A DNA stretch of 64,000 bases from a virus: positions 1 through 64,000 of IMG/VR virus record IMGVR_UViG_3300007345_000035, one strand, 5' to 3'. Shown here in pieces: positions 38,202 through 64,000 of this stretch. Positions within the stretch are counted from its first letter, which is position 1; each line of letters starts with the position of its first letter. A program made the translations under genes and the position numbers. The notes beneath the pieces were generated by a model. The model was not told where the DNA came from and searched no databases. It was given only the letters and a program-made list of their open reading frames with translations.

Positions 38202-41200
38202 GGGGCACGCTGCGTGCGCACCAGCTCGTCCGCGACGGCCTGCACGATGCCGCGCGTGAACTTCGCCTGTTCGGCCGTCAGCTCCCCAGCCTTCACCAGG
38301 TCCACGGCCTTGCCGACCAGCTCCAGGCCCGCCTTGCCCAGGTACACCTTCGTCAGGTGGCTGGAGACCGCTTCCACCACCGTGTGGGTCAGCAGCTTCT
38401 GGCCCAGCTTGGCGATGGCGGGGGCCGCGCCCTTTGAAACCAGCGCCAGCGCTACATGGCCAAGCGTGATCCCAACGCTCAGCACCTTCATCTTGTCCTC
38501 GCGTGACAACGTCTCACCACCCGCGAGCCGCGTCAGGGCCTTGGCCGCCGCGGGGAACTCCGCGAACGTGTGTTTGGCCGAGTGCTCCAGCCGGTCCCAG
38601 CCGGCGCGTAGCAGCTCGCCAAGGTCGTTGGCCAGGCGCACCGCGTGCTCCCGCACGTTCTGCGGCTTCTTGTCCAGCTGCGGATACCAGTAGTCGAAGC
38701 CTTTGCCCTTGGGCTTCCGCCAGCCACGCCGCGCGGTGCGGGGGATGGGCTCCCACCCGGTGCCGGGCGGGCGAAGCCCACGGCGGGCCTCGTAGTTCCT
38801 GTTGCGAACCACGGCCTTCGCCAGATCCAGGAGGAACGTGAAGCGCACGCCCTTCTTGAGGACGTGGAAGAACCGGTACGTGTCGCGGCCCTTCTTTCCG
38901 CGCTGGCTGATGCGCCCCCACTGCTTCTGGACGCGACCCAGGGCGTCGGCGTAGCTCTTCTCCATGTCGTTGGGCGGGGGCTTGGAGTCCACCCAGGCCA
39001 ACTCGATGGCCCCGCGGTCGCCCTCGAGCCGGGTGCGGTCCTCAACGCTCTCGGCCTTGACCCCGAAGTCGCCCAGCATCTTGATGAACTGCTTGTCTTT
39101 CGCGTCGGCCCCGAAGGTCTGGCCGATGGCCTCGCGCAGGGGGCTGCGCTCCACGTCCACTTTCATGGTGAGGCTGGCGCGGTCGAAGCTGAACTTGGCG
39201 TCACGACCGGCCAGGCGCGAGGCCAGGAACTTCGGGGTGCGCTTGGAGATCTCGCCCGCGGCCTGCCTGAGCGCGGACTTCTGGGGCTCGCCGATGTCGG
39301 TACGGCGCTCAATGTGCGCGACCAGCTGGGCCTTGAGCCCGTCGATGGCCACGCCCTCCTTCTTGGCGATGGCGATCTTGGCCATGAGCTCAGCGGCCTG
39401 GGGCTGGTTGTACAGCACCTCTGGCATCTTGTCCGCGAACAGGTGCGTGTTGTCGGCCAGGCGGATGGCCGTGCCGACGCCGTCGCGCTCCCAGTCGATG
39501 TGCGAGCTGGAGTGCGACACAATCCAGCCCGCGGCCTTGTTGGTGAGGGTGGACCCCAGGACGCGCTGCAGGGCGTGGCTCTCGCCCACCTCCGTCCGCC
39601 AGAGCTCCATGCTGGCGTTGGGGTGGTAGTTGTCCTTCACATCGAACCCGCCGCGGGCGATGGCGGGGATCGTGTAGCCCATGTCGTGGGTGATCATGGC
39701 CAGGACGGCAGCGGCCCGCTCGGCAGGCTCCGCGGCCAGCCCGCCCTCGTCGAGGGCGTCGAGGATGGAGTCCATCTGCATGATGTTGCGCCCGATGTGG
39801 CGCAGGCCGTGGTCGCCCAGGGTGCGGCGGACGCTCTCGTGCTCCTGGTGAATGAGCTTCTGCGCAGCCATGCTCATCAGCTCGGTGGTGTCCTCTGGAG
39901 AGGCCCCCGCGGCCTCCAGCTGCCGGCCCAGGGACTCAAAGCAGACCGTGCCCCACTCGACGTTGTGCGGGCTGATCCAGCCGTCCTTCGCCATCTTCTC
40001 CAGGTAGGCCGTGCCGTCCGCGGCGCTGCCGATGGTCGGGCGCTCGTAGCGGGCGTCCATCTCCTTCTGGACCTGGCCCCAGTCGCTGGTGAGCTTCGCG
40101 CGCTCGCGCTTGCTCATGTCGTTGAAGCCCTCGGGTAGCTTCGGCATGGGCTCGTCGTGGACCTTGCCCGTTGCGGATGCGCCAGCGTGGGCCTGGGGCT
40201 TCGCCGCTGGCTGCTCCTGCCGCGTTCGGCGAGCGGCCCTTGCGTCGGGACGTGCAGCTCGGCGGCGCTGCTGAGAGGGCGCAGGGCCCCCCTGGCGCTG
40301 CCAGCGCTTGATCTGCGGGTTGGACTTCGACGGCACCAGGACCAACCCAGGGCGTCCTTTGTTCAGCGGCACCCAGCCCGTCGCCCCGCTTCGCTGTTGC
40401 TCACGCTGAGCGGACTGCACTGCGATGGCGTCCAGGGCCTTCCGCAGCGCGGAGGTCTCGGCCAGGGCGTCGCAGAACGCGCGCATTGCCTTGTTGATGC
40501 GGGCCCGCTCCGCGCCTTGCGGGTACGGCTCGAGGGGCGTCTTGATGTTCGCGCGCTGCACGCTGTACTGCTTCTGAGTGCCCGTCACCAGGTAGGTGTT
40601 CTCGCGCCCAGCGTTGGCGAGCTCGTCCTCCACGAACGACTCAAAGGCCCTGGCGAACATCTCGTGGGGGCGGCCCCAGTAGTCGCCCAGGGCTTCCGCG
40701 TGGCGCGTGTAATCGGACTTGCCGGCCCGCTTGCCTGACAGGTCCTTCTGCCGGCGCTTCAGCTCGTCCCGGGCCCGCACGATGGCCTTGCGATCCGCCG
40801 CGAACTTGTCCCGCTCCGCAGGGGTCTTGGGTCGGGGTGCGACGTTGAACTTGCTGACCCGCGCGCCCCACTCGTCCCAGTCGGCCTTGAGCGCGGCCTC
40901 TTCGGTGGCGATGTCCACCATCTTCGGGTCGCCGTGCTTGATCGAGGCCATGACGTTGCGCACGGCCTCGGCCACCTTGGGCGGCACGGCCGGGTGCCCC
41001 TCGTAGTGGGACAGGAAGTGAACCCGCAGCCGGTTGCCGTCCTGCTTGAGCTCCACGTCGCCCACGCCGCGGACGGTGCCGGTCAGGACGTGGTCCATGA
41101 AGTGCCCCCACTCATGGGCCAGGGAGCCCCCGCCCTTGGTCTTGGTGAGGTTGATGGCGAGCTGAGACCCCTCGTAGTGCGCCGACGCGTTGCCGCTGCC

Positions 41201-42532
41201 ACGGGCCCCAAAGGCCAGGCCCAGTCGGTTGCCGTGAGCGATGGCCTGCGTGGGGATGCCGATGATCTCGGCCAGGTCGGTCAGGGCCGCGTGGCAGTTC
41301 TTGAGGTTGGCGCGTGCGTCCTCGTCGTTCACCCAGTTGCCGAACTGCACCGCGCGCAGGTGGAAGTCGCCCAGCATGCGGGCCTCGTCCACCTTGCCGG
41401 TGATCTCCGGCCCCCTGCGCTTGACCTCCTTTCCGACGTGGCGCTTCCAGCGCGTGCTCTTGCCCTTGCCCGTCGATGCCTTCTTGTCGGCCCAGCTCCA
41501 GTCGTCCGCGCGCTCGATGGTGCCGGCCTTGGGCAGGACCTTGCCGTGGAACGCGGGAACGCTCTTGCTGCGCGTCAGCCGCACGACGCCCTTGGTGAAC
41601 CGCGCCCCCATCGCGTCGGCATAGCCGCGGTAGGTGGCGCGCATGGCGTCGTCCTTCTTGACCAGCCGGTACTGGGTGGGCTCGCCGTCGCCGCTGTAGA
41701 GCCGGCGGATCTCCGAGTACCCAGCGCGACGCAGGGCGTCGTAGGTGATTTTCGCCTTCTTGGGGCGGATGTTGGTGTGGGCCTCGCGCAGGGTCTTGCC
41801 CTGGTAGACCCACGCCTTGACGTGCTCCTCCTCGGTCTCGCCGCTGGGGTGATCGACGTAGATCCCGCCGCTGTAGCTGTAGGCGTCGGGGTCGATGTCC
41901 TCGTCGGACAGGCCCAGCTCTGCGACCAGGTCCGTGGAGCTCATGGGCTTGCCGGTGACCTTGCCCTGGGCCATCAGCTTCCAGTCCTCCACCCACTCCT
42001 TCAGCTCGCTCACGGTGTGGATGCCGTCGAGCTGGTGCGCGAGCCAGTCCAGGCCCTCGACGTAGGCCAGGCGGTCGCCGACGCTGTTGGACGGCTTGGC
42101 GTCGATCATCTTGAGCAGCTGCTGCTTGGCGAACGCTGCGCCGGCCGTGTCTCCCAGGGACCGCTGCTTGACGTGGTCGAACGGACCTATGACCTTGGCC
42201 TTGGTGACCGTGCGGTGCGCCTTGACCTGGCCCAGCCCCTCGAGCTCTTCCAGGTTGTCCCGGTGGACGCGGTCGAAGGTGTGCTTGCGGGCCCCCTCGA
42301 TCTTCTCGCCGGCATCGTGAAAGCGCTTGCGCCCGCTGCGGTCGTCGGACTCCGGGCGGGCCACGGGCTCCGGCTTGGGCTTCGCCGGCCGCTTCTTGCG
42401 CTGGTGCTCGACCACCTGGGTCGCCTTGCCGGTCTTCTTCGACACGCGCTGGTGCTGCTTGACGCGGCCCTTGGTGGCCGAGCTGAACAGGCCCAGCTGG
42501 GCCTGGGCTTTGAGCAGGATGTACAAGCGCAT
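38198..42532 (-). CDS. Polyvalent protein: zincin metallopeptidase-like domain and HD-domain
   Basis: A 1,444-residue protein. A divergent tag lies at residues of about 9-48 (LGLFSS, RVKQHQRVSKKTGKATQVV). Near residue 440-480 the sequence ASAHYEGSQLAINLTKTKGG is followed by SLAHEWGHFMDHVL, a zincin HExxH-type site (HEWGH, near 469) of the kind found in large polyvalent phage proteins (LPD1-like), with RPHEMFARAFESF as the likely third-ligand helix. A second module near residues 900-1010 has HGLRHIGRNI, then MITHDMGYTIP (near 946) and NYHPNAS, an HD phosphohydrolase pattern. The last 300 residues are basic then helical. Role in host takeover or capsid maturation is inferred. Confidence 0.75.
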   Translation of the reverse strand: MRLYILLKAQAQLGLFSSATKGRVKQHQRVSKKTGKATQVVEHQRKKRPAKPKPEPVARPESDDRSGRKRFHDAGEKIEGARKHTFDRVHRDNLEELEGLGQVKAHRTVTKAKVIGPFDHVKQRSLGDTAGAAFAKQQLLKMIDAKPSNSVGDRLAYVEGLDWLAHQLDGIHTVSELKEWVEDWKLMAQGKVTGKPMSSTDLVAELGLSDEDIDPDAYSYSGGIYVDHPSGETEEEHVKAWVYQGKTLREAHTNIRPKKAKITYDALRRAGYSEIRRLYSGDGEPTQYRLVKKDDAMRATYRGYADAMGARFTKGVVRLTRSKSVPAFHGKVLPKAGTIERADDWSWADKKASTGKGKSTRWKRHVGKEVKRRGPEITGKVDEARMLGDFHLRAVQFGNWVNDEDARANLKNCHAALTDLAEIIGIPTQAIAHGNRLGLAFGARGSGNASAHYEGSQLAINLTKTKGGGSLAHEWGHFMDHVLTGTVRGVGDVELKQDGNRLRVHFLSHYEGHPAVPPKVAEAVRNVMASIKHGDPKMVDIATEEAALKADWDEWGARVSKFNVAPRPKTPAERDKFAADRKAIVRARDELKRRQKDLSGKRAGKSDYTRHAEALGDYWGRPHEMFARAFESFVEDELANAGRENTYLVTGTQKQYSVQRANIKTPLEPYPQGAERARINKAMRAFCDALAETSALRKALDAIAVQSAQREQQRSGATGWVPLNKGRPGLVLVPSKSNPQIKRWQRQGGPAPSQQRRRAARPDARAARRTRQEQPAAKPQAHAGASATGKVHDEPMPKLPEGFNDMSKRERAKLTSDWGQVQKEMDARYERPTIGSAADGTAYLEKMAKDGWISPHNVEWGTVCFESLGRQLEAAGASPEDTTELMSMAAQKLIHQEHESVRRTLGDHGLRHIGRNIMQMDSILDALDEGGLAAEPAERAAAVLAMITHDMGYTIPAIARGGFDVKDNYHPNASMELWRTEVGESHALQRVLGSTLTNKAAGWIVSHSSSHIDWERDGVGTAIRLADNTHLFADKMPEVLYNQPQAAELMAKIAIAKKEGVAIDGLKAQLVAHIERRTDIGEPQKSALRQAAGEISKRTPKFLASRLAGRDAKFSFDRASLTMKVDVERSPLREAIGQTFGADAKDKQFIKMLGDFGVKAESVEDRTRLEGDRGAIELAWVDSKPPPNDMEKSYADALGRVQKQWGRISQRGKKGRDTYRFFHVLKKGVRFTFLLDLAKAVVRNRNYEARRGLRPPGTGWEPIPRTARRGWRKPKGKGFDYWYPQLDKKPQNVREHAVRLANDLGELLRAGWDRLEHSAKHTFAEFPAAAKALTRLAGGETLSREDKMKVLSVGITLGHVALALVSKGAAPAIAKLGQKLLTHTVVEAVSSHLTKVYLGKAGLELVGKAVDLVKAGELTAEQAKFTRGIVQAVADELVRTQRAP
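42389..42508 (-). repeat. Divergent tag copy at the N-terminus of the zincin/HD protein
   Basis: Residues of about 9-48: LGLFSS box, VKQHQRVSKK, then TQVVEHQRKK. The HQR element is doubled and the VKAH element is altered. Confidence 0.7.
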
Positions 42533-42540
42533 GGGGTTCC

Positions 42541-45500
42541 CTACGTTGGGCCGGGTGTGTGTTTGAAGGCCCCAGCGGGCAGGACCCAGTTGGCAGGATC
42601 TACCAGTGGGGCCTGCACGTCTCGAGCCTGGACCAGGGTCCGGTACTGCCGCAAGGCCGCCACGTCGATGCTCGCGGTGCCAGCATCAGCCCGTTCAGTG
42701 ACAGTCCGCCCCGCTCGGTCGATAGTGCCAATGAGCTCTTGCTCACGGGCTTCGATGCGGGCGAACTGCGCGGGCAGCAACTCCCGAAGGATGGCCCACT
42801 CGCGGTCGCCGGAGAAAATGCAGCCCGCGCAGCTGACGCGACCGTAGCCAGCCTGGTAGGCCGGGTGCGGCACGATGCCGCGCTCAGCCATCTTGAGCCA
42901 GACCGCGGCCTCGGTCCATCGCAGGACGGGTCTCCAGTGGTCCACGCGCCGACTGTTCGACGCCGTCCGGTGCTTCTCGAGGTCGGCGTACTTGTCACGG
43001 CCTGGACTCTCCTCGCCGCGCTCGCCGGTGATCACCAGGACCTTGCCGCCCTTCTTGAAGCGCGGGTCGTTGCGTAGGGCCAGGGCGAAGACATCGATCT
43101 TCAGGACGGCCGAGCACCAGCGGGTCTGCAGGTTGGCGGACTGCTGGGGGAAGCGCCCACGGCTGGCCACCTTGCCACCACCACCTGCCTCCAGGACGCC
43201 GTCGGGGGTGTCGAACGACACGCCGTGGGTCCGACGGTCCTGTTTGGTGAGCTCACCCTCAAACCCCCCTTTGCGAGCCTGGAACCTAATGGGCAGGCCC
43301 AGCGCCTCTGCAAAGGCGCGGCAGTAGTCCTCAGTGACGGGCCAGTCCATGAACGGCTTGTCGGGCGGGTCGATGCTCTGGTGCCAGAGCTCCACCTTGT
43401 CGTGGGGCACACCCTGGCGGTCCAACTCCTCGAGTGTGGCGAAGGTGGCCGCGATGGAGTCCTTCCCGCCGCTGAACGAGATCAGAATGCTCTCGTACTC
43501 GCCCAGGGGCAGCAGCTCGGTGTCCGTGGATCTCGCGGTCGTTGGTTTCGCTCGCCGCTGGGGCATCTCCCGCAGGTGCTCGCGGACCAGTCGCCCCTTG
43601 CGGACGTAGGTCTTGACCTGGCGCTTCGCCTTTCCGCGGAGGGCTTGCGGGTCGAAGAGTGCGAGCTGGTCAGCCTTGTGCAGTGCGGCCTCGGTGCTGA
43701 ACGTCCCACCATGAAGCACCAGGTGAGGCAGGGCCTCGGGGGTGAGCAGTCGCTCCACGGCGTGGCGGGCCAACACAGTAGCCGGTCGCCAGCCGCCCCC
43801 AGGCTCCCAAACCTGGCCGCTGACGATGTCGCTGTCGCTGGCACCGATGGCAACCGGATCCAGGACCTCGACGAACACACCCGCGGCTTGCGGTTGAGCC
43901 TCGGTGCGCACAACGAACCGGGTTCGCTCAGCCTTTGTGAGCGGGGTGTCGGTGTTGGCGCTGAGGTCGATCTCCGCGGGCCGCGCGTAGTCCTTCCGCA
44001 TGACGGCCGCGATGGTCGCCTCCGGGTTCTTCGCCCGCCACTGCTCGACGGCCTCCGTGATGGGGACCCCGGCGTTGTACATGATCAGCATCGCCTTGGG
44101 GTTCCGCGGGTGCGCCTGCATGGCGTTCTGCTCGTACTCGACGACGCGCTGGAACGCCTTGGGGTGCTTCTCGCGGAGCACCCAGTACCAACCGATCGGC
44201 TGGAACTTGCACATGAAACAGCCGCTCTTGCGCACGTCGCCGAAGCCGTGGCGCTCCAGGATGGCCTGCTCGTCGAACTTGGACACGTTGGACTCGACCA
44301 GGGGGTAGGTCGCCCGCTCGTACTTGGGGCGGCCCATGTCGATCGCCCGGGTGGCCTCGTCGGCCGCGATGCCGATCAGGATGCGGTGCCGACCCAGCTG
44401 GCCCTTCTTGACGCCTGCAGACCAGCCCCGGTTGCCGACACCGAAGCGCTCCTGGGCCAGGTCGTTCAGCAGGTGGCGCGCTGCCGCCAGCTTGTGGTTG
44501 GCCGTGCAGCTGCCTTTGTCGCAGATTCGGACGATCATGCCCTTCTCAGCGTAGTCCTCCATGATGCCGACGCGGTTGTGGTAGTAGCCGCTGGCCGCCT
44601 TGCCCTCGATGCTCTCCGGTGGGTCCTTCCGCCATGGGTGCCCGGTCTGGATGTCCCTGTTGAGCGCGGCCACCTCGGCCTTCAGGCGCTCGTAGGTGAA
44701 GGGGTCGGTGTCCTGCACCTCCTTCATGCGGGCCATGGCGGCCTTCTTGCGCGTCCGCAGGCCGATCAGGCGCTCGCTGTGGGCTTCAGCCTGGGCGGTC
44801 GGCGGCTTGTGGGCCACCAGGAAGCGGATCCCCATCTCCTCGCACAGGGCCCGCACCTTGGGGACCTGGTCCCAGGTGTGCTTCCACTCCGCGCCGGTGT
44901 CGATGAACGTGACGGCGTCGATGTCCTCGGGCTTGAGGATCCGGCCCTCGCTCTTGAGCTTGCCCTCTTTGACCAGCAGCAGCTCGGTGATGGAGTCCCG
45001 GCCCATGCCCATCATCAGGATGGTCAGGTGTGGCCGGTCCAGGTCCCAGCTGTGCTCTGGCCCGAACTCGATCCCGGGCACGGCGTGCCCCTTGGGGGTG
45101 CCGGGATCCGTCTTCCGCTGGTGCTGCTTCACCTGGGTGATGCCGGTCTTGGTCTTCCGCAGGTGGGCCTTGACCTGCGCGAAGAGGCCCTGCTGGCTGG
45201 CCTTGGCCAAGCTCTCCAGGTGGGCCTCGAGCCCAGCGATCAGCCCGCCCTTGCCCTGGAAATGGTCGTGCGACCGGGCGCGCTCCATCAGTTCCAGGGC
45301 GTCCTCGGCGCTCGCGCCTGGGCGGATCTCGAAGTGCCCGCGGGTGGGCATGTGGATGGTGCGCTTGGCCAGGTCGCTGTCGCTCAGCTCCTTCCCCATG
45401 GCGGCGTAGGGCCCGGCCTCCCAGCGGACCTTGAGCCTGGCCGCGCCAGATTCCGCTCGCTGGTAGGCGGCGATCGCCGTCTCGCGTAGGCCGGTCAGCT

Positions 45501-47595
45501 GCTTGAGCCGGGCCTCAAGGGCTATTAGAGCCTTGTCGGCCTGATGGGCGGTTCGCACCCGCTCTGCTCGCTCACTCCCGGCTGCGGTGGTCTCGAATCG
45601 GACCTTGCCGCGGGTGGCACTCCCAGGCTCCGCGCCCGCGCCCACGGTCATGTTGGCGCGGATCTCAGCGGTCACCTTCGCGATCTCATCGCCCAGCTTG
45701 CCGGCGCGCTCGCGCCACTCCGCTGCCGACGTTCCGCGGGCCGACCCCTCGGCCTGGGTCTTGCCGCGGCGGATCTCGGTCGGACGCAGCCCCAGCTGGC
45801 GCAGGGCCTTGTAGGTCGCTCCGGCCTCGTCCAGGAAGCTGTAGGTGACGAACAGCTTGCGGCCGCTGGTGGGCAGCAGCTTGATCAGGCGTGCCGTGAG
45901 CTGGCTGGCGGCGTTGCGGGTGGTGCCGTCGCTGGCCACGCGGGTGAGCTCCAGGACCTCCTCGGGCTTCACGTCGCCTCGGTCCCAGCGCCCGGTCGGC
46001 GTCCCGGCCGTCGCCACGGCTACCAGCCGGTCGCCCCGCATCAGGCCCAGGGCGTACATGATGCCGCGCTCGTTGAGCTTGGGCAGCTTGCTGTGGTGGC
46101 GCTCGACGAAGGCCGCGGCCACCTCGCGCGAGACGTTGACCAGGCGGCCCCGGGTCTTCCCGGTCAGCTCGTCCTGGACGATCGCGCGCATCAGCCACTT
46201 CGGCATGGCCAGCGGGTGCCGGTCGTCGGTGCCGGGGTCGTCGGCTCCGGTGACCCGGATCTTGTCGTAGCCCGGTGGGTTGAAGTCGCCGCTGGCGCGC
46301 TCGGGGTCTGTCTCCATGACCAGCTTGGCGATGTCCAGGGCCAGCTGGATCCGGTCCTCCGGGTGCAGGGGCTCGCCGTCGGGGCCGCGCCGGGGGACGC
46401 TCAGCAGGTCCGGGATGTCTGCGCGGGTCCACAGCTCGTCGGCGTCGGCAGGTGTCTGCATCGCCTGAGCGAACTCAGGGTCATAGACGAAGCGCAGGGC
46501 GCTGTCGGTGACGGTGTCGGCCACCTCGTCGAGCTCGCGGTCGTCCCATGCCCCCTCGATGACCGGGCGCGGACGGTGGCCCTTCTCCCCAGGCTTGGGT
46601 GCGCCCTCGTCCTCGCGCCAGTGGGTGCCCTGCCGGCGCTTGGTGAGGCCGGTGCGCTGGCGGATGATGGCGGCGGCGGTCGCCTGGCCGTCGTTCTCGA
46701 TGGCGCGCAGGTGCTCGCGCAGGGCGCGCTTGGCCCCCTCGGTCTTGCCCTCCTGGTAGGCGTGGACCGCCAGCGCATCCAGGGCCAGCCCCATGCCGTC
46801 GTAGCCGCGGAGCTCGGCATCGGACGCGCCGGCCTTCCGGGCCACGTCCTTCACGCTGGGGATGGCCTCCTCGAGGAGCGCGCGGCGCAGCTTGGCCAGG
46901 GCGCGCAGGGACGGGCTGGCGCGCTTCACGGTGCGCTGGTGGGCCTCGACCTGGGTGATGCCCTTGCGGGTCTTGCGCGCGTGCGCCTTGACCCGGGCGC
47001 GCTTGAACAGCTCCAGCTGGTCGGCCTTGGTGAGGTTGCGCACGGTGCGGGCCACGCGCAGGCGTGCCTCGAGCTGCTTGTAGTCCTCGGGCACCTCGGC
47101 CATGGACAGCGCCAGCCCGCGGCCCTGGACGTGGTCCAGGCGGGCCCGTGGCTCCTGGATGGCCTCGGCCCAGTCGGCCCAGTGCCAGACGGTCAGGCCC
47201 AGGTTCTTCGGGCGCTTGCTGTCGTAGGCCAGCCGGTAGGTCGCCAGGGCGGTGACGGCGTCGGTGAAGCCCACCATGCACTTCGGCTCGTCGTCGTGCG
47301 GGCCGTGCTTCTGGCTCTGGTGGATGACGTAGACCATGGGCGCGGCCTCGGGCCCGTGGGGGCCCAGGAACACGTCCACGGGGTCGCCGTCGATGGCCAC
47401 GGTGTCGGGCACCTCGCCGTAGTGCGCAGGCATCTCGGTAGCCCACTCACGCCCGTCAGGGCTGGTGCCCCGGCGCAGGGAGCCCTTCACGTTCTCGATG
47501 AGCACGCGGACGGTCCCCCACTGGGCCTGGGCCTGGTAGGGGTGTTCGGCCCGGTTGGGCCTCGGCGGACCCATGACGCGGTAGCCAGTCGGCAC
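42541..47595 (-). CDS. Polyvalent protein: pyrophosphatase-like, Mom-like GNAT and two PP-loop (PAPS-reductase-like) domains
   Basis: A 1,684-residue protein with three internal tags. Residues 25-135 hold DGDPVDVFLGPHGPEAAP and MVYVIHQS, the inorganic-pyrophosphatase-like domain seen in phage polyvalent proteins. Tag 1 is near 189-224. Residues of about 440-600 (AAFVERHHSK, RLVAVATAGTP, LELTRVASDGTTRNAASQL, VTYSFLDEAGATYKALRQLG) resemble the GNAT fold of Mom, the phage Mu adenine-modifying enzyme. Tag 2 is near 799-828. A PP-loop domain follows with MGMGRDS (near 862) and GCFMCKFQP. Tag 3 is near 1306-1347. A second PP-loop domain has SFSGGKDS (near 1373) and CAGCIFSG. PP-loop enzymes activate substrates by adenylation, as in PAPS reductase and DndC. 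The start is GTG with GGAG. Confidence 0.78.
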   Translation of the reverse strand: MPTGYRVMGPPRPNRAEHPYQAQAQWGTVRVLIENVKGSLRRGTSPDGREWATEMPAHYGEVPDTVAIDGDPVDVFLGPHGPEAAPMVYVIHQSQKHGPHDDEPKCMVGFTDAVTALATYRLAYDSKRPKNLGLTVWHWADWAEAIQEPRARLDHVQGRGLALSMAEVPEDYKQLEARLRVARTVRNLTKADQLELFKRARVKAHARKTRKGITQVEAHQRTVKRASPSLRALAKLRRALLEEAIPSVKDVARKAGASDAELRGYDGMGLALDALAVHAYQEGKTEGAKRALREHLRAIENDGQATAAAIIRQRTGLTKRRQGTHWREDEGAPKPGEKGHRPRPVIEGAWDDRELDEVADTVTDSALRFVYDPEFAQAMQTPADADELWTRADIPDLLSVPRRGPDGEPLHPEDRIQLALDIAKLVMETDPERASGDFNPPGYDKIRVTGADDPGTDDRHPLAMPKWLMRAIVQDELTGKTRGRLVNVSREVAAAFVERHHSKLPKLNERGIMYALGLMRGDRLVAVATAGTPTGRWDRGDVKPEEVLELTRVASDGTTRNAASQLTARLIKLLPTSGRKLFVTYSFLDEAGATYKALRQLGLRPTEIRRGKTQAEGSARGTSAAEWRERAGKLGDEIAKVTAEIRANMTVGAGAEPGSATRGKVRFETTAAGSERAERVRTAHQADKALIALEARLKQLTGLRETAIAAYQRAESGAARLKVRWEAGPYAAMGKELSDSDLAKRTIHMPTRGHFEIRPGASAEDALELMERARSHDHFQGKGGLIAGLEAHLESLAKASQQGLFAQVKAHLRKTKTGITQVKQHQRKTDPGTPKGHAVPGIEFGPEHSWDLDRPHLTILMMGMGRDSITELLLVKEGKLKSEGRILKPEDIDAVTFIDTGAEWKHTWDQVPKVRALCEEMGIRFLVAHKPPTAQAEAHSERLIGLRTRKKAAMARMKEVQDTDPFTYERLKAEVAALNRDIQTGHPWRKDPPESIEGKAASGYYHNRVGIMEDYAEKGMIVRICDKGSCTANHKLAAARHLLNDLAQERFGVGNRGWSAGVKKGQLGRHRILIGIAADEATRAIDMGRPKYERATYPLVESNVSKFDEQAILERHGFGDVRKSGCFMCKFQPIGWYWVLREKHPKAFQRVVEYEQNAMQAHPRNPKAMLIMYNAGVPITEAVEQWRAKNPEATIAAVMRKDYARPAEIDLSANTDTPLTKAERTRFVVRTEAQPQAAGVFVEVLDPVAIGASDSDIVSGQVWEPGGGWRPATVLARHAVERLLTPEALPHLVLHGGTFSTEAALHKADQLALFDPQALRGKAKRQVKTYVRKGRLVREHLREMPQRRAKPTTARSTDTELLPLGEYESILISFSGGKDSIAATFATLEELDRQGVPHDKVELWHQSIDPPDKPFMDWPVTEDYCRAFAEALGLPIRFQARKGGFEGELTKQDRRTHGVSFDTPDGVLEAGGGGKVASRGRFPQQSANLQTRWCSAVLKIDVFALALRNDPRFKKGGKVLVITGERGEESPGRDKYADLEKHRTASNSRRVDHWRPVLRWTEAAVWLKMAERGIVPHPAYQAGYGRVSCAGCIFSGDREWAILRELLPAQFARIEAREQELIGTIDRAGRTVTERADAGTASIDVAALRQYRTLVQARDVQAPLVDPANWVLPAGAFKHTPGPT
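43551..43678 (-). repeat. Internal tag 3 (divergent) of the 1,684-residue protein
   Basis: KADQLALFDPQ box, then VKTYVRKGRLV and REHLREM. Clearly related in layout but decayed; it lies directly before the second PP-loop domain. Confidence 0.65.
45112..45200 (-). repeat. Internal tag 2 of the 1,684-residue protein
   Basis: GLFAQ box, VKAHLRKTKTG, then ITQVKQHQRK, directly before the first PP-loop domain. Confidence 0.88.
46924..47030 (-). repeat. Internal tag 1 of the 1,684-residue protein
   Basis: LELFKR box, VKAHARKTRKG, then ITQVEAHQR, between the pyrophosphatase-like and GNAT-like parts. Confidence 0.85.
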
Positions 47596-47597
47596 GG

Positions 47598-49685
47598 CTA
47601 CTCCCAGCTGGTTTCGAGCTCGCTCTCTGGCAGCTTGCCCTCAGCGCGGAACATGCCACGCTCCCAGGGGCGGCCGGCTCGCAGCGCTTTGATGATGTCG
47701 GGGGCGATGGCCTGGGCCTTGCGCAGGCTGCCGACCAGGACGTGGTAGGGCAGGGGGGTGAGGGCGTCCACGGTCACCCACGGGATCTGGCCGGGCTTCG
47801 ACCTGAACCGGACGGACACGCCGTCCACAGGGAACGTGGTGTCGAAGTCGGTGCTGGACATCGCCAGCGCCATGCTGGCTCGCGTGCTGCCCTTGGCCAG
47901 GTCCAAGGTCGGGTTGACCACCGGGAAGCACTCGGGGTTGACAGTGAAGCGCAGGCTGCTGCCCTTCTTGAGTCCGGACATCAGGTGCTTCACGGTCTCC
48001 GGGTCGCCGCCCATGTCCTGGTAGGTCTTGATGGCGGCGCGTGCGGTGCCCTTGTCGGTGCGGCCTCGCCTGAAGTCGCCCACCATGCGGTTGGCGAAGC
48101 CTTCGGCCTCCATCCGCTGGCGGTCGCCGGCCGTGCGGACCACGTCGCCGTCGTCCACGCGGGTGCCGGTGGGGGTCTCGCGCAGCCCGTCGGTGCGGCG
48201 TGAGTCTGCGCCAGCCAGGCTGTAGCGCAGGGTGCGCCCCTGCTTGTTGGCCTGCAGGAAGCCCCGATCGGTGAGGCGCTTGAGTGCGGCCCGTTGGATG
48301 GCGCTGCTCTTGCCGAACCCGGTGACCATGTCGGACACGCTGACGGCTCCATGCTCCTGCAGGTGAGCGTCGAGCTGGTCCCAGGTGTAGCCGGCTTTGT
48401 CCATGGCCTCGTTGTCGAGGGCGTCGGCCAGGTTCCCTTTGCGCTTCGGGCCCCTGGATGCCTTCGCCTTCGGCTTCTGCCCACCGGGCAGGGAGTAGCG
48501 CAGGACGCCCTCATGCTTGCCGTGGGCCTCGAGCTGCCCATCGTCCAACATCCGGTGGAGCACGCGAGTGTGCTCATGGGGCTGGCCCCCGAATGCGAAC
48601 CGCAACTCGCGCGCGGTGACGCTGCCGTGCTCCTGCAGGTGCTTGGTGAGCTGCGAGGGTGTCCAGCCCAGCTTCCCGGGTCCGCCCCAGTCCATCAGGG
48701 CGCTGGCGACGCCCCCCTCGGTCAGGCTCTCCTTCGTGGCGCTGGGCAGGTCGAGATCCCAGCGCCCGTTGTCCTCCCGGTAGGACGCGACGGCCTTGGC
48801 CTTGCCCTTGGTCCAGACCCACTGGCGCTGGCCGGTGTGCTCCAGCTCCACGCCGTTCAGTCCGAGGTCGCGGGTCGCGTGGTCGAGGTTGCTGATGGCC
48901 TCAGACCGGGCGTTGCCCTTGGCCACGATGGACGCCCGGAACCTCTTGGCCAAGCCGGGGTGGGTCAGGTAGTCGCCCTGCGTCTTCTCCGTCTTCAGGA
49001 AGGTGTGCCAGCCCTTGGGGTTGCCCAAACTGATCGCTGTCTCGATCTCGGTCAGCCGGTTGTCCAGCTTGCGGTTGAGGCTGTTGGCTGAGACGAGGCG
49101 GCCCGCCGACCCGGATGCGTAGTAGTCCACGGCTCGGATGGCGGCCGACAGGGCCTGGAGCGTGCTCCGCGTGGTGTCGCGCGCGCGCCCAAGGTGCAGG
49201 GGGTCGAAGTCTTTGGCCAGGAGCTCCTTCGCCTCGGTCTCGCGCTTGGCCAGCAGGGCCATGTCCTGCGCTCCGCGCTCCTTCTTCTGCTCGTAGGCGA
49301 ACTCGCCCGCCTTGATGGTGGTCTTCCGGCGGCCGAACTTCGCGTCGAAGTATCGCTTTCCCGTCTGTTGCGTGATGGTGCCAGCGCCGAACTGTGGATC
49401 CCACACGGGGGTTCCCGGAGCCAGCGTGATGCCACGCTGGGTAGCGAGGTTGGGCGGGTAGTCGAAGCCCTTGGGCATCTTCGGCTTCGCCTTGCCGGCC
49501 TTGCGCTTGCGGTCGTGCTGCTTCACCTGGGTGAAGCCGGCCTTGGTCTTGCGGGCGTGGGCCTTCACCTGGCTGGGGCCACCGAACAGGCCCAGCTGCT
49601 CAGTCTTGGCCAGGTCGATGATGATGGAGCCGTAGCCGTCGTGACGGGCGGCGCGCGGATCAAAGGACATCAGGAAGCGTGGCAT
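47598..49685 (-). CDS. Tagged protein with two winged-helix repeats
   Basis: A 695-residue protein. Residues of about 28-62 are a tag copy (LGLFGG, VKAHARKTKAG, VKQHDRKRK). Residues of about 90-120 (WDPQFGAGTITQQTGKRYF) look like a small beta domain. Two similar winged-helix units follow: WTPSQLTKHLQEHGSVTARE near 343 and YTWDQLDAHLQEHGAVSVSD near 432, each ending in LRYSL. The C-terminal 150 residues (FTVNPECFPVVNP, VSVRFRSKPGQIPW) are of unknown type. DNA binding is inferred from the winged helices. It is followed after two bases by the GTG of the 1,684-residue gene. Confidence 0.7.
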   Translation of the reverse strand: MPRFLMSFDPRAARHDGYGSIIIDLAKTEQLGLFGGPSQVKAHARKTKAGFTQVKQHDRKRKAGKAKPKMPKGFDYPPNLATQRGITLAPGTPVWDPQFGAGTITQQTGKRYFDAKFGRRKTTIKAGEFAYEQKKERGAQDMALLAKRETEAKELLAKDFDPLHLGRARDTTRSTLQALSAAIRAVDYYASGSAGRLVSANSLNRKLDNRLTEIETAISLGNPKGWHTFLKTEKTQGDYLTHPGLAKRFRASIVAKGNARSEAISNLDHATRDLGLNGVELEHTGQRQWVWTKGKAKAVASYREDNGRWDLDLPSATKESLTEGGVASALMDWGGPGKLGWTPSQLTKHLQEHGSVTARELRFAFGGQPHEHTRVLHRMLDDGQLEAHGKHEGVLRYSLPGGQKPKAKASRGPKRKGNLADALDNEAMDKAGYTWDQLDAHLQEHGAVSVSDMVTGFGKSSAIQRAALKRLTDRGFLQANKQGRTLRYSLAGADSRRTDGLRETPTGTRVDDGDVVRTAGDRQRMEAEGFANRMVGDFRRGRTDKGTARAAIKTYQDMGGDPETVKHLMSGLKKGSSLRFTVNPECFPVVNPTLDLAKGSTRASMALAMSSTDFDTTFPVDGVSVRFRSKPGQIPWVTVDALTPLPYHVLVGSLRKAQAIAPDIIKALRAGRPWERGMFRAEGKLPESELETSWE
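49500..49611 (-). repeat. Tag copy near the N-terminus of the winged-helix protein
   Basis: LGLFGG box, VKAHARKTKAG, then FTQVKQHDRKRK, at residues of about 26-62. Confidence 0.85.
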
Positions 49686-49694
49686 GGCGTGATC

Positions 49695-52600
49695 CTATCC
49701 GTCGGTGTCGTCGGGCGTGCTCGCCTCGGCGTTGTAGTGCCCATGGTGGACCTTGACCACGGCCCCCGTCTCGTCGTCGATGACGGTGCAGCCCTTGGCC
49801 CCCACCTTGTAGACCTGGCCGCGGCGCGCGGTGCCCGTCTTCGGGCACTGGTAGGAGACGTACCGGCCTGGGCCGGCGGGATGGATCGGGTCCACCTTTG
49901 GACGCTGGGGGCCCTTCGGCCCCGGGGTCAGCTGGCGCTGGTCGCCTTTGTGGAGCCCGTGGAGCCCGGAGGAACCGTAGACGTGACCCAGGCTCCGGTC
50001 GAGCTCCGCGCCGCCGGCCGGGTCGGGGTTGGGGGCCGGCTCATGCCAGGACGCGGCCTGCTCGTAGTAGTCGTCCTCGGCCGCCCGGTCGGCGTCCTGC
50101 TTGGCCTGCACCGCGGCCCACAACGCCTCTGCATCGGCGGTCGCGGGCTTGTCCTGGTCGTGCGACGACGGGATCGGCGACATGCCGGTACGGTCCACCA
50201 CCGACTCCAGGAGCGCGGACGCGACCCCGATCCGGCGATGGTCCACGTCCACTTCGATGTCGAAGGCGATCTTGCCGTTCTTGCCGTCGTTGGCGTTCAG
50301 CCAACCCACGGCCTTGTCGCCGTCGAAGGCGTAGAACGTGCCGTGATCGGAGGCGAACGGGTTGGAACGGTCGGGCGGGTAGTGCTTCACGACCACCTCA
50401 CCCCCCTTGATCGCATACCGGCTAGACCAAGCGGCCGGGCCCAGGGGCCGTCGCTGGATCCGCGTGTTGATGCGGCCAGGCGTGTTGTGGTCGATCCGCC
50501 TTCGCTGCTCTTCAGCCTTGGCCTGGTCTGGGTTGGGGGCCGGCTCGTGCCGGGGCTCGTCGGTGGCCTCGAGGTCGTCGAGGTTGTGGAACTGCTCGTA
50601 GCTGCCTTCGCCGTCGTCCGATGGGAAGTAGACCAGGGCGCGGGGCTCGTAGGTGTTGCTGGCGTAGGTCAGGTGGGAGATCCGCCCGGTCTTGGCCCAG
50701 CGGGTGCCCCCGCGCGCCTCGACCCAGTCACCACGCTTCAGGCTGACATCAGGCAGCTCGCCGTAGAAACGGGCACTCTTCCGCTGGTGCTGCTTCACCT
50801 GGGTGATGCCCTTGGGCGTCTTGCGGGCGTGAGCCTTCACGGTGCCGAAGAGGGACATCTGGTCGCCTTTGTGGAGGCTGTGCTCGAGGTGACCGTGCTT
50901 GTAGATGCGGCCAGCGAAGTGCCAGATTCCATCGACGTTGATCTCTGCCCCTGTGCCCTGCTCGGCCATGCGTAGGCCGCGGATCACGCCGCTGGTGTGG
51001 CGGTCTCGGCTCAGCCAAACATCGACGCGCTCGCCACGCTGGAAGGTCTCGTGCTGGACATTCTCGCCCCTGATGCGGGGGAGGGTGACGTGGTCTTTGC
51101 CCCTCGGTGCCAGGCTCATCTGACCGGGCACCCGGCGCTGCTTGCCGGAAGCGGTGTGCCCGTGCGCGGTCTTCGGGAACAGGTAGTCGTTGAGGCTCCA
51201 ACGGGTGGCGGGTGGGAGCCGCTGCTTCGGGTGTTCGCCAGACCAGGCCAGGACCAGGTGGTCGTCGCCGTTGGCTTCGGCCTCGGCAATGCCCTCAGAC
51301 AGTAGCCAGCTGTCCATCCGCTTGAGCGCGTTCATCCACTGGCGGTTGCTGGAGCCAGACGACGACTTCGGCACCGGCCGAGTGACGCGCCCGGTTCGGG
51401 TGAGCACCCGCTCGCCGGCCTTGAGCTTGTCGCCCTGGTACGCATGGCGGGGGGCCCTGACGTGCATCTTGACCTGGGTGAGCCCCTGGCGGGTCTTCCT
51501 GGGGTGGGCCTTCACGGTGGTCTGGCCACCGAAGAAACCAAGCTGCTCGGCCTTCAGCAGCTCGGCCAGTAGGCCCTTCTCCATGTAGGGCAGATCCACG
51601 TCCAGCAGCATCGCGGTGGCCGCGATGGCGTTGTCGGTGAGCTTGCGCTGCCAGACTCCGATCGACGGTGCCCAACGGAAGCCCCGCCCCTTGAGCGCGC
51701 GGCGCATCTCCTCGGGGGGCTTGTCGTCGAAGTGCAGACGGATCCGGTCGGCGTCCACGGCGTACTCGATGCGCCCGCCCTTGAACGTGTGCTCTTGGTG
51801 CGCGGTGGACTCCTTCGCCTCGAGCGTGCGGATGCGCGCCTCCATCCGCTTCATGCCAGCGCGATGGTTCGTCAGCGCGTAGCTGGGGAAGCCGTACCGG
51901 CCAGCGAAGTCTGGTTTGAGCAGTGACGCAGCGGTGTCCGCGTCGATGCCGAGCTCAACGAGCGCTGCCAGCTTCTTTTCCGCGGTCGGGTTCTTCTTCG
52001 ACCGAACGACCCGGTTGGCGGCCTTCATGGTCGCAAGCTGGCGGGTCGCGGCCTCGAGCTTCAGGCGCTCGGCGGCTGCGGGCCCACCCGCGTCTGATAC
52101 GCGCTGGGCTTCGATGGCCTGCACCAGGGTGCGCCGCCCCTTCTTGGCGTACTCCAGCAGGTCGCGGACCTTGTTGTCCGCGGCGTTGCTGCGCTTGCGC
52201 ATCCGGGCCACGGGGAAGTTCGCGGGCCCCGCCACCATGCTGCTGACCATGCCGGCGCGCGAGGTCAGCCACGCGCGTGTGCGGCTGGCGTAGCCGGCCC
52301 TGTACGTGGCGAACGCCTCTTCGAAGGCCGCCCGCTCCGCGTCGGTCTGCGCCATCGCGCCGATGTGCTCCTCGACGCCCTGCAGGTGCTCGACGTACTC
52401 GCGGATCACCTGCCTGCCCCGGGTCTCGGGGACGTGGGACGTGCCGTTGTGGGCGGTCGTTGCCAGGTCGAGGCCGATGTCCTTTGCGTACTCGTGCCCC
52501 AGGAGCGCGGCGTCCTCGGCGTCCTGCTTCTGCTTGCGCGCTGCGGCGGCCTTGGCCCTGCGTGCCTCACGCGCCGCGGCCTCGATCTTGGGCTTGGCGG

Positions 52601-54797
52601 CCTCGGATCCCTCGTCGATCGAACGCATCATCTTCGCGTGCAGGCGCTGGGACCGCTGGCCCCCGCCCACGGTGCCCTTGCGCTGGTGCTCCTTCACCTG
52701 GGTGATGCCCTTGGGCGTCTTGCGGGCGTGAGCCTTCACGGTGGACTGTCCGCCGAAGAGGCTGAGCTGGGCGGCCTTTGTCAGGCGAAAAATGAAGCGC
52801 ACGGCCTTCTCCATGGGGGTGCTCTCGTCGGCCAGGTGGCGGGCAACAAGGGTGCCGGCCGTCTCGAGCCAGGCCCTGCGGTTGGCTGGCGTCAGGTAGG
52901 GGGCGACCATGCTCCACTCGCCGGTGCTGGCCAGCAGCTGGGCCACGATCTCGGAGGGGTTGACCCCTTGGTCGCGTAGTTCGCGCGCCAGGGCGGCGCT
53001 CTTGGTGTCGTTGAGCTCGCGGTAGAGCTGGTGTTTGTATGCCCGCACCTCGGCGGGGCTGTTGAAGTACAGTTCGCGGCTCTTGCGGTGGGCGGCCACG
53101 CGCTGGTCCTGTAGCTCCGGGCCAGCGGCCTTGGCGGCCTCCAGGACCTGGCGGGCTCCGTCGGCGTCTCCGGCGTCGAGCCGAGCGCGCACGTAGTGCC
53201 GGATGGTCGCGTCCTCGCCGAACAGCTGGTTGTTCACGGCGTTCATCTGGGCGTTCGTACTGACCCGTGGTGGGCGCTCCATCGCGTGGGTCAGTTCGTG
53301 GGCGATGGTGGACCGCAAGCTCTGGGCGACGGCCTCGGCCTTGTGGACACCGGGCGGGGTCTGAAGGATGAGGTCGTAGCCCCACACGTTCATGGTGCCG
53401 TCGTCGTTGGCCATGCCGTGGGTGCGCCAGATCGCACGGAAGCCGATGGGCCGCCCCGACTGCGTCTTCTTCCGTCGCGCAGTGGACAGGTAGAGGTTGA
53501 ACAGGCGGGGTTCGCCGTTGATGTTGGCGACGGTGTGCTCGCCCAGGTCCACGCTGGCGTAGTGGGGCAGCTTCACGGTGCCGTTGAGGCGGTGCTCGAT
53601 GCGGTCCCACGCCAGCGCCTTGTCCACAAGCTCGCGCACGACCGCTTCGCTGACGCCCATGGTGCGCTGACCGACGTGGGCGTTGTGGCTTCGGCTCACC
53701 TGGCGCTCATGCTGCTTGACCTGGGCCAGCCCCTTCGCTGTCCGCCGCGCGTGGGCGCGGACGCGACTGAAGTCCAGGGCGAGCTGGGCCCCCTTGGTCA
53801 GGCGGAACACGAGCCGGGCCCCCTTGGACAGGGCGCGGGTCAGTGCGGTCTGCATCATCTTCCTGTTGGCCGTCGCCTGTTTGGGGTCTTCGGGGGCCAG
53901 GTCGGCCGTCAGCCACGTCGCGGCGTCGGCCATCTGCGTGCCAAGCCGGGGGCCACCACCAGGTCCGTTCGTGCGGCCCAGCTTGGCCTGCAGGAAGTTG
54001 CTGTCCAGGCTGATCTGCGTGTCCGGGCTGATCGCTGGGATCGCCTCGAGGAGAGCGCGCCCGGCCTTGGTGCGGGTCTTCGGACCCAGGCCCAGCAGGT
54101 GGACCCGTGGGGGCTGGTGCTCCTGGATGAACGCCTGGACCTGACGGGGCGGGGCGGCCTTCTTGTTGGAGGGGATGGCGGGCACCAGGTCCTCGTCGGA
54201 CAGGCCCAGGGCCGCTTGGCACTCGACCCAGAAGCGGCCCAGGTCGAGCTCACCGGCTTGCAGGGGGACCAGGACCTCGACGCCCTTGTCGGCCAGCGCC
54301 TGGACGCGTGGGGCGTACTCGCGCATCCGCGCCAGCGTCAGCTCTTGGTTGCCGACGGCGTCAGGGGCCACCAGCGCCGTCGGGGCCTCACGCTCTGCCA
54401 GGCGGTCGTAGACCGATAGGACCCGCTCCCACGTCGCATCAGACATCGGGGTGAACGCGCCGGTCGTCCGGTCGAGCTCGCTGAACGCGCCGGAGTCAAC
54501 GAATAGCGGAACCACGGGCAGCTTCACGAGCAGGTCGATGGCGCGCGGGCCGAGCTCCAACGCGCTGACGCCCATGGGCTGGCCGGCGTACCAGTAGCCC
54601 ATGATCTCGCCGGGGTGGTTGGCCCCGGATGCGTAGTAGAGCCTCCCGCCCTCGTCCAGGCGGTAGCTGATGCGGCTGTGGCCGCGCACCATGGTGACGC
54701 CCTTCGCCGTCCGACGCGTGTGCGGCTTGACGAAGAGTCGGACCTGGTCGGCCTTGGCCAGCCCCCCGTGGGGCGAGCCCTGGGGAGCTTGGGCCAT
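49695..54797 (-). CDS. Polyvalent protein: TGT/DpdA-like transglycosylase, zincin and GNAT modules separated by five tags
   Basis: A 1,700-residue protein. Tag 1 is at residues 17-44. Module 1 (45-330) is TGT/DpdA-like: FVDSGAFS (D101), LVAPDAVGN (142-150), LVPLQAG (176-182), LLGLGPK (234-240) and SLDSNF (D265). DpdA enzymes insert 7-deazaguanines into DNA. Tag 2 is near 332-365. Module 2 has AHELTHAME (near 500) and YFNSPAEVRAY, a zincin. Tag 3 is near 671-706. Module 3 is helical, with MVAGPANFPVARMRKR, and ends FRWAPSIGVWQRKLT, seen in other large mobile-element proteins. Tag 4 is near 1079-1113, before an unknown module. Tag 5 is near 1309-1341, before a GNAT domain with VDHRRIGVASALLE (near 1519). 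A truncated tag box (HKGDQRQL) lies near 1620. Confidence 0.78.
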   Translation of the reverse strand: MAQAPQGSPHGGLAKADQVRLFVKPHTRRTAKGVTMVRGHSRISYRLDEGGRLYYASGANHPGEIMGYWYAGQPMGVSALELGPRAIDLLVKLPVVPLFVDSGAFSELDRTTGAFTPMSDATWERVLSVYDRLAEREAPTALVAPDAVGNQELTLARMREYAPRVQALADKGVEVLVPLQAGELDLGRFWVECQAALGLSDEDLVPAIPSNKKAAPPRQVQAFIQEHQPPRVHLLGLGPKTRTKAGRALLEAIPAISPDTQISLDSNFLQAKLGRTNGPGGGPRLGTQMADAATWLTADLAPEDPKQATANRKMMQTALTRALSKGARLVFRLTKGAQLALDFSRVRAHARRTAKGLAQVKQHERQVSRSHNAHVGQRTMGVSEAVVRELVDKALAWDRIEHRLNGTVKLPHYASVDLGEHTVANINGEPRLFNLYLSTARRKKTQSGRPIGFRAIWRTHGMANDDGTMNVWGYDLILQTPPGVHKAEAVAQSLRSTIAHELTHAMERPPRVSTNAQMNAVNNQLFGEDATIRHYVRARLDAGDADGARQVLEAAKAAGPELQDQRVAAHRKSRELYFNSPAEVRAYKHQLYRELNDTKSAALARELRDQGVNPSEIVAQLLASTGEWSMVAPYLTPANRRAWLETAGTLVARHLADESTPMEKAVRFIFRLTKAAQLSLFGGQSTVKAHARKTPKGITQVKEHQRKGTVGGGQRSQRLHAKMMRSIDEGSEAAKPKIEAAAREARRAKAAAARKQKQDAEDAALLGHEYAKDIGLDLATTAHNGTSHVPETRGRQVIREYVEHLQGVEEHIGAMAQTDAERAAFEEAFATYRAGYASRTRAWLTSRAGMVSSMVAGPANFPVARMRKRSNAADNKVRDLLEYAKKGRRTLVQAIEAQRVSDAGGPAAAERLKLEAATRQLATMKAANRVVRSKKNPTAEKKLAALVELGIDADTAASLLKPDFAGRYGFPSYALTNHRAGMKRMEARIRTLEAKESTAHQEHTFKGGRIEYAVDADRIRLHFDDKPPEEMRRALKGRGFRWAPSIGVWQRKLTDNAIAATAMLLDVDLPYMEKGLLAELLKAEQLGFFGGQTTVKAHPRKTRQGLTQVKMHVRAPRHAYQGDKLKAGERVLTRTGRVTRPVPKSSSGSSNRQWMNALKRMDSWLLSEGIAEAEANGDDHLVLAWSGEHPKQRLPPATRWSLNDYLFPKTAHGHTASGKQRRVPGQMSLAPRGKDHVTLPRIRGENVQHETFQRGERVDVWLSRDRHTSGVIRGLRMAEQGTGAEINVDGIWHFAGRIYKHGHLEHSLHKGDQMSLFGTVKAHARKTPKGITQVKQHQRKSARFYGELPDVSLKRGDWVEARGGTRWAKTGRISHLTYASNTYEPRALVYFPSDDGEGSYEQFHNLDDLEATDEPRHEPAPNPDQAKAEEQRRRIDHNTPGRINTRIQRRPLGPAAWSSRYAIKGGEVVVKHYPPDRSNPFASDHGTFYAFDGDKAVGWLNANDGKNGKIAFDIEVDVDHRRIGVASALLESVVDRTGMSPIPSSHDQDKPATADAEALWAAVQAKQDADRAAEDDYYEQAASWHEPAPNPDPAGGAELDRSLGHVYGSSGLHGLHKGDQRQLTPGPKGPQRPKVDPIHPAGPGRYVSYQCPKTGTARRGQVYKVGAKGCTVIDDETGAVVKVHHGHYNAEASTPDDTDG
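50777..50873 (-). repeat. Tag 5 of the 1,700-residue protein
   Basis: MSLFG box, VKAHARKTPKG, then ITQVKQHQRK, before the GNAT module. It shares a 52-base identical stretch with tag 3. Confidence 0.9.
51457..51563 (-). repeat. Tag 4 of the 1,700-residue protein
   Basis: LGFFGG box, VKAHPRKTRQG, then LTQVKMHVR, before an unknown module. Confidence 0.85.
52678..52785 (-). repeat. Tag 3 of the 1,700-residue protein
   Basis: LSLFGG box, VKAHARKTPKG, then ITQVKEHQRK. Bases 52692-52743 are identical to 50793-50844 in tag 5 (52 of 52). Confidence 0.9.
53701..53800 (-). repeat. Tag 2 of the 1,700-residue protein
   Basis: LALDF box, VRAHARRTAKG, then LAQVKQHERQ, directly before the zincin module. 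Confidence 0.82.
54666..54749 (-). repeat. Tag 1 of the 1,700-residue protein
   Basis: VRLFVK box, PHTRRTAKG, then VTMVRGHSR, at residues 17-44 before the TGT/DpdA-like module. Confidence 0.8.
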
Positions 54798-63754: not shown

Positions 63755-63756
63755 GG

Positions 63757-64000
63757 TTAGCTCCTGCGCGCCTTGGCAAGCCGAGAGAGGGCCACGTCCG
63801 CGTAGAGGTTGGCGTGGCCGAAGTGAGGGTCGAGGCCGATGTGCTCGACGACCCACTTCTGCTTGCCGATGAGCACCTTGTCCGGGTTGTCCGAGTAGGT
63901 GTTCCGCCAGCGGAAGCGGGTGAGGTGGTCGATGTACGCCTCGCGGGCGATGCGGACGGGCTGCCAGCGGCCCTGGCGCAGGTTCGACGTGAAGACGACC
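63757..64000 (-). CDS. C-terminal end of an unidentified gene, cut by the window edge
   Basis: The last 80 codons of a leftward gene ending in TAA at 63757-63759. The visible protein (LRQGRWQPVRIAREAYIDHL, NTYSDNPDKVLIGKQKWVVE, HANLYADVALSRLAKARRS) is basic and mixed alpha/beta. In this gene order the large terminase would be expected nearby, but nothing visible proves that identity. A homing nuclease directly after it would fit a conserved packaging gene. Confidence 0.6.
   Translation of the reverse strand, partial: VVFTSNLRQGRWQPVRIAREAYIDHLTRFRWRNTYSDNPDKVLIGKQKWVVEHIGLDPHFGHANLYADVALSRLAKARRS

Follow-up and report, generated by a model that had tools for sequence, protein, structure and literature searches.

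We found that a 64-kb phage fragment encodes, between its portal and major head protein genes, giant polyvalent proteins in which modules from several DNA-modification families are strung together, and that a tag of about 35 residues carrying a peptide of the clamp-binding type precedes nearly every module. The explanation we favor, to which we give slightly less than an even chance, is that these modules make up a tagged, exchangeable modification toolkit, perhaps docked on the β sliding clamp, that lays several marks on phage DNA. The window, by which we mean the whole stretch of 64,000 nucleotides analyzed, comes from a record of 64,146 bases with 69% GC, and the probable genes of the region all lie on the minus strand, to which all window coordinates below refer. 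The genes of the portal protein (60997-62859; PHROG_11117, PHROG_12) and of the major head protein (25425-26966; PHROG_752, 2e-26) enclose seven large or tagged ORFs. Translation, Pfam and PHROGs place a DpdA-like, a zincin-like, a primase-like, an unassigned and a GNAT segment, each behind a tag, in a protein of 1700 residues (49695-54797), and an InPase module followed by tagged Mom-like, PP-loop 1 and PP-loop 2 modules in a protein of 1684 residues (42541-47595). Each polypeptide thus carries several catalytic domains with disparate activities, and domains of the polyvalent type are present (InPase, PF18823, 98 bits; LPD1, PF18796, 79 bits in Pfam), both of which belong to the polyvalent proteins described by Iyer et al. 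2017 (PMC5512222). Judged from these sequence features and from the portal and major head protein genes that flank the block, the giants of the window are polyvalent proteins. Their gene context, along with the precedent of polyvalent proteins (PMC5512222), makes packaging in the virion or linkage to it plausible. The genomes compared are fragments throughout, and the start codons of the giant ORFs are uncertain. Near the portal gene lie also a sulfatase ORF of 712 residues (58186-60324; PF00884, 2e-39), which is unusual among phage head genes, and, at the window end, an HNH endonuclease with a NUMOD4 motif (63245-63856), likely a homing endonuclease.

The first module of the 1700-residue protein (53793-54680) had been read in a first-pass annotation as a DpdA-type transglycosylase from the strings FVDSGAFS, VPLQAG and SLDSNF, all of which are in frame in this ORF. 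None of the profile libraries names this segment in the window protein (DUF6610 scored below its cut-off), and tblastn with a family member against 50,697 phage records gave no match, so relatives were taken from IMG/VR. An alignment of three divergent copies led to a family on 72 IMG/VR loci, and comparison of 48 representatives revealed that D62-S63-G64-A65-F66, P106-D107, Q141, P170, H194 and L196-G197 are invariant and D226 nearly so; 8 of the 48 match PHROG_887. AlphaFold2 supplied with the family alignment returned a TIM barrel of the TGT, queuine-type transglycosylase kind (pLDDT 86, pTM 0.81), whose best match in the Foldseek viral structure library (BFVD) was a polyvalent phage protein (TM 0.71, 31% identity), with further matches to a 464-residue protein of Vibrio phage nt-1 and to several phage queuine tRNA-ribosyltransferases. 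The same model retrieved generic TIM barrels only from the PDB, with no TGT among the 50 matches listed, and PDB sequence searches yielded nothing useful for the DpdA, Mom or either PP-loop module. By hhalign the family matched the DpdA of Escherichia phage CAjan (P = 5e-6, probability 86%), while the match to MED16 DpdA alone was weak. A joint alignment with both keeps D62, D107, H194 and D226, to which we assign the TGT active-site roles, as well as G64-A65-F66. Together, the family alignment, the AlphaFold2 model and the CAjan comparisons indicate that membership of the DpdA/TGT superfamily is well supported, in line with the earlier reading; action on DNA is putative. In phage CAjan, deletion of dpdA removes dPreQ0, and DpdA2 was first defined in phage nt-1, a statement about the phage and not about the 464-residue protein matched here (PMC6884629). 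The window record and its near relatives yielded neither QueC nor QueD, in agreement with the earlier remark that the window holds no complete preQ0 pathway, and a 7-deazaguanine product would therefore depend on preQ0 from the host. Mycobacterium phage Orion carries dpdA only, in a host that lacks the pathway, and its DNA contained no base of this kind (PMC6884629). The DpdA-like module also lies inside ORFs of 4,600-5,900 codons in other phages (L087, L099, L103, L078, L080 and others).

The Mom-like GNAT module (45805-46146) lies in the 1684-residue ORF, where the strings LELTRVASD, NAASQL and DEAGATYKAL, from which a resemblance to Mom had been proposed, are all in frame. The resemblance is borne out by the Pfam Mom profile (PF25680; 27.8 bits vs a cut-off of 27.1, residues 487-591) and by PHROG_1384, "Mom-like" (4e-14); NF045478 XF1762_fam reached 48.6 bits, below its cut-off of 50. 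Since the direct hhalign match to Mu Mom was weak (P 0.016), with the conserved blocks in matching order by eye, assignment to the Mom family is by profile only. Relatives of the module are found on 17 IMG/VR loci; a Mom query and a PP-loop query with approximate boundaries returned distant matches only.

The two PP-loop domains claimed for the same ORF are likewise there, with MGMGRDS and SFSGGKDS both in frame, each in a PAPS-reductase-like domain with Cys pairs visible in the sequence. PP-loop module 1 (43984-45036; MGMGRDS ... GCFMC), which has relatives in L013, L060 and L122, matched SspD at 8e-17 in the full protein and at 1.5e-10 alone. PP-loop module 2 (42616-43605; SFSGGKDS ... CAGC) is of the PAPS-reductase/BrxP type, matching PAPS_reduct (PF01507, 4e-9), PHROG_424 (2e-42), BrxP (3e-18) and, weakly, DndC. 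Both BrxP and SspD belong to the PAPS-reductase-like enzymes found in phosphorothioation systems (PMC12839542). A PADLOC scan of three window proteins detected none of the partners SspB/SspC, DndD/E or the BREX core; the record is a fragment. We also considered PP-loop 1 as a QueC supplying preQ0 and dropped this candidate in view of the SspD match and of the lack of a QueC profile match in the window. A stand-alone PP-loop 2 enzyme occurs elsewhere (L093, 3188 onwards, plus strand), with QRDLF about 40 residues before its SGGKDS loop, and adjoins an ORF that combines DpdA and InPase.

The last of the modification enzymes is a tagged C5 cytosine DNA methyltransferase (34966-36699; PF00145, 1e-41). 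It had been described as adjacent to the other modules; the enzyme itself is confirmed, but it lies outside 42541-54797, two ORFs or 6 kb away, and the word is thus a loose one. Around these enzymes are modules that the first-pass annotation had left unmentioned, namely InPase, two zincin-like segments (one with LPD1), HD-like, GNAT and winged-helix segments, as well as the tag itself in its 12 copies. The inorganic pyrophosphatase module (47194-47532; PF18823, 5e-28) is of the polyvalent-protein type. In the 1700-residue protein, a zincin-like segment (52788-53642) carries a HELTH motif (STIAHELTHAME), read by eye and without a Pfam match, a second segment (51609-52307) matches PHROG_19458, annotated as primase (6e-36), and a second GNAT-like segment (50193-50354) scored 20.1 bits with PF00583, just below the cut-off of 20.7. 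Winged-helix segments are found in a tagged protein of 695 residues (47598-49685; PF07848 PaaX, 4.5e-6; PHROG_630, 3e-10). A tagged polyvalent protein of 1444 residues (38198-42532) combines a zincin-like segment, LPD1 (PF18796, 2.5e-22) and an HD-like segment, the last assigned by eye, with a match to NF041907 CLCA_X below its cut-off; the zincin-like and HD-like assignments as a whole partly follow motifs read by eye. A tagged protein of 501 residues (36696-38201) has no function assigned and carries the tag at or near its N-terminus. Finally, a large ORF (29321-35269), the true start of which is probably downstream of the listed one, ends in an SNF2-type helicase (PF00271, PF00176) with QAGLF 29 residues before it.

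Exploring the relatives, we observed fusions of the same modules, with differing orders, in no fewer than nine additional phage lineages, indicating that the grouping of these modules is real. The orders include Mom-DpdA-PP1 (L060), DUF6884-Mom-DpdA (L055), Mom-DpdA (L067), C5MT-DpdA-Mom (L071), InPase-PP2-DpdA-Mom (L054), PP1-Mom-PP2 (L122) and InPase-PP2-Mom (L120), so that single ORFs of five separate lineages (L054, L055, L060, L067, L071) hold both a Mom-like and a DpdA-like module. A bacterial MAG contig (L031) carries InPase-C5MT-DpdA, then Mom, then DUF6884, with the DUF6884, InPase and methylase assignments confirmed by Pfam. The DpdA list shares seven contigs with the 17 of the Mom scan, although either scan reached only a very small part of 2.9 million contigs; because both scans were seeded from the same few phages, this overlap is not an unbiased rate. 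DUF6884 itself (L031, 3-2684, minus strand; PF21818, 4e-27), which directly follows a tag in the MAG contig and is fused to Mom and DpdA in L055, is a candidate for a further DNA-modification enzyme with its chemistry unassigned. Two more modules were read by eye in a further ORF (L013, 5591-11095, plus strand): QLALF is followed by a RadC/JAB-like segment (FTHNHPGGFP), and close to the C-terminus lies a segment resembling N6-methylases (NPPF). The N-terminus of this ORF gave a weak ART-PolyVal match.

The modules had originally been taken together as one hypermodification set, in which the enzymes would act in sequence to build a single complex modification on virion DNA. The families and their recurrent association stand, and co-occurrence of modules within the same ORFs is what a joint pathway would lead one to expect. 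The one joint set is not supported: the targets differ, from guanine base exchange and acyl-type modification of adenine to a phosphorothioate-type PP-loop chemistry and cytosine-5 methylation, and the relatives carry the modules singly and in subsets as well as together. Given four chemistries and a window record in which neither QueC nor QueD was found, the modules probably do not form one hypermodification pathway, and we consider such a pathway highly improbable. Several of these enzyme families are known to protect DNA.

The feature that the modules share is the tag. The window has twelve copies, which stand ahead of almost all modules and also open separate proteins, with the layout (L)xKAxQLxLF, a short gap, and a VKAHxRKTxKGxTQVKxHxR hairpin. 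All 12 hairpins are preceded by a Q-motif, and Q, V, R, V, H and R are invariant. In gene order the copies read QVRLF (54672-54746), QLALDF, a hexapeptide form (53703-53786), QLSLF (52680-52769), QLGFF (51456-51545), QMSLF (50781-50861), QLGLF (49510-49598), QLELF (46934-47019), QQGLF (45115-45195), QLALF (43570-43668, with a degenerate hairpin), QLGLF (42399-42499), QLNLF (38080-38168) and QLGLF (36584-36675). The tags thus contain a clamp-type peptide, QLxLF or QLxLxF, which is a short motif. QLALDF, found in the window and in L057, and QLGLDF in L106 match what we take to be the known six-residue variant of the clamp peptide. QLxLF itself is the consensus of bacterial peptides that bind the β sliding clamp (PMC4549789). 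At the DNA level, copies within the window are 70-85% identical over 66-110 bp, and a combined tag DNA pattern occurred six times in the window and never in dinucleotide-preserving shuffles of it. Such identity, along with the variable order of modules among relatives, would also be expected if the tag were a recombination linker, i.e. a conserved DNA block for module exchange without a role in the protein. However, divergent lineages have kept the motif at the protein level, Q-motifs that stand alone, with no hairpin, are enriched too, and isolated N-terminal copies of the tag exist; we regard a mere linker as improbable.

Analysis of the tag outside the window revealed the same arrangement, with these tags in front of these modules, in a divergent phage (L009/L012/L013) and in the MAG contig L031. 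A shorter tag, KxQLxLFDTPVxVxxHVRxDGxxVxPH, stands at the N-terminus of ORFs of 1500-2160 residues in other phages, among them a cultured one, Bordetella phage vB_BbrM_PHB04 (L138; MF663786.1, 26262-32555), in which the tag KAQLALFDTPVHVGAHVRKDGTVVKPHIR and QGSLF open a protein of about 2097 residues annotated as N-6 DNA methylase. Searched as an alignment, the tag retrieved a near-identical contig only, and the window tag as a query gave no match in the L031 genome although L031 carries tags of its own; searched as a DNA pattern it retrieved relatives, with most genome matches due to chance. In 36 polyvalent ORFs taken from beyond the window clade, the motif Q[LM]x[LM]F was present 11 times as compared with 1.4 in shuffles (0 of 200 shuffles reached 11), an 8-fold enrichment, and twice in the same ORFs reversed. 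In 649 ordinary ORFs it was present once vs 2.0 expected, that is, without enrichment. Within the window clade the motif lay no more than 110 residues upstream of 13 of 25 module starts, compared with 3.7 by random placement, and 3 of about 23 hairpins lacked a Q-motif; outside the clade it lay at 6 of 103 module starts vs 3.4 expected, a placement that is not significant. Among six more phage loci that encode polyvalent-type proteins, one (PHB04) showed the tag and another a lone QLxLxF; several proteins of this type (L139-L142) had none.

The position of these genes between portal and major head protein would also suit a tag that targets its protein to the head, serves as the cut signal of a maturation protease in the procapsid, or both, with QLxLF only resembling a clamp peptide. 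The capsid targeting sequences of phage T4 are a precedent for a head-targeting tag. Separate proteins, too, carry the tag at their N-terminus or close to it (36696-38201, 34966-36699, the PHB04 methylase, L148 and L153), and its repetition before each module would make sense if the chains are cut. Against this, Q, L/M and F are kept in the fashion of clamp peptides, the QLxLxF form recurs in the window, L057 and L106, QLxLF without the hairpin is found inside long proteins as well, and neither a cut site nor a protease partner was identified. A head-targeting or processing signal is in our judgment somewhat unlikely. The reading of the tag as a general docking device, in which every module would use its own QLxLF-hairpin as an anchor to the host β clamp and a set of unrelated marks would be laid in step with replication, is tentative, possible though clearly short of an even chance; the repeated tag could also serve another partner. 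In 14 records no phage β clamp gene scored above the cut-off, with one sub-threshold match in another phage, and the clamp used would therefore be that of the host. We found no publication in the open-access literature that links polyvalent proteins to clamp peptides.

In the toolkit that we propose, each polyvalent protein would be a chain of interchangeable enzyme modules that enters the virion along with the DNA and is then injected. The DpdA/TGT-type base exchanger, the Mom-type GNAT, the two phosphorothioation-type PP-loop enzymes and the C5 methyltransferase would do the modifying, with pyrophosphatase, metallopeptidase-like and helicase modules as helpers. The chains may be cut by the metallopeptidase-like modules or by a head protease, and each freed enzyme, retaining its own tag, would bind the host β clamp where phage DNA is being replicated, and there the basic HxR...HxR hairpin might, as a guess, add a contact with DNA. 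Unrelated marks would be placed on phage DNA during replication, and with several of them no single restriction system would be sufficient. As each enzyme would have its own anchor, it would still reach the DNA after a gain, loss or reordering of modules or after its release by proteolysis. An enzyme injected from the virion would act before replication starts, which clamp docking fits less well than action late in infection. In another reading, the modules would be injected effectors directed at host nucleic acids or defenses, which might mark host DNA or tRNA or confuse modification-dependent nucleases instead of protecting phage DNA. Many activities against the host are thought to reside in polyvalent proteins (PMC5512222), tRNA is a substrate of TGT relatives, and the HD-like, GNAT and pyrophosphatase modules would fit host takeover. 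However, the mix is dominated by families whose characterized members modify DNA, and the DpdA-like module keeps H194, aligned with the CAjan DpdA histidine, a conserved His196 being reported for DpdA and lacking in DpdA2 (PMC6884629). We hold host-directed effectors to be unlikely. Should the tagged toolkit prove true, the scope of polyvalent proteins would extend from host takeover to DNA protection by multiple chemistries, the DpdA family would gain a large unnamed branch, and docking on the clamp would explain in physical terms how phage DNA is located by such a number of modification enzymes. A simple prediction would follow, one that can be checked with peptides and one cultured phage, vB_BbrM_PHB04, and further anti-restriction modules could be sought in metagenomes by a short sequence signature.

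Compared with known systems, the DpdA-like module resembles the phage DpdA singleton group (Hutinet et al. 2019, PMC6884629) in the order of its motifs and in the invariant D, D, H and D that it shares with CAjan and MED16, and in that the window record, too, is without QueC or QueD. It differs in having only ~15% identity to CAjan DpdA and in being, for many phages, not a stand-alone gene but a module in polyproteins of 1,000-6,000 residues. The Mom-like module shares the Pfam and PHROG profiles and, by eye, the block order of Mom from phage Mu and its relatives, whereas it is distant from Mu Mom and fused inside a polyvalent protein. The PP-loop modules are akin to SspD (module 1) and to BrxP and, weakly, DndC (module 2), but module 1 has GMGRDS in place of SGGxDS and no phosphorothioation partner was recognized among the three proteins scanned. 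With the clamp-binding peptides of polymerases, repair proteins and transposases, the tag shares an identical QLxLF consensus and presumably the six-residue variant, while here the peptide, a candidate for such binding, comes in many copies per protein, with a basic hairpin attached, and in phage modification enzymes. Like the polyvalent proteins of Iyer et al. 2017, those of the window are giant, multi-domain and encoded near portal and head genes, with InPase, LPD1, zincin-like, GNAT, helicase and methylase domains. Whereas the text of that survey (PMC5512222) is without Mom, DpdA, TGT, PAPS, PP-loop, clamp or linker, modules of the Mom, DpdA and PP-loop types dominate the window proteins, and each of them is tagged.
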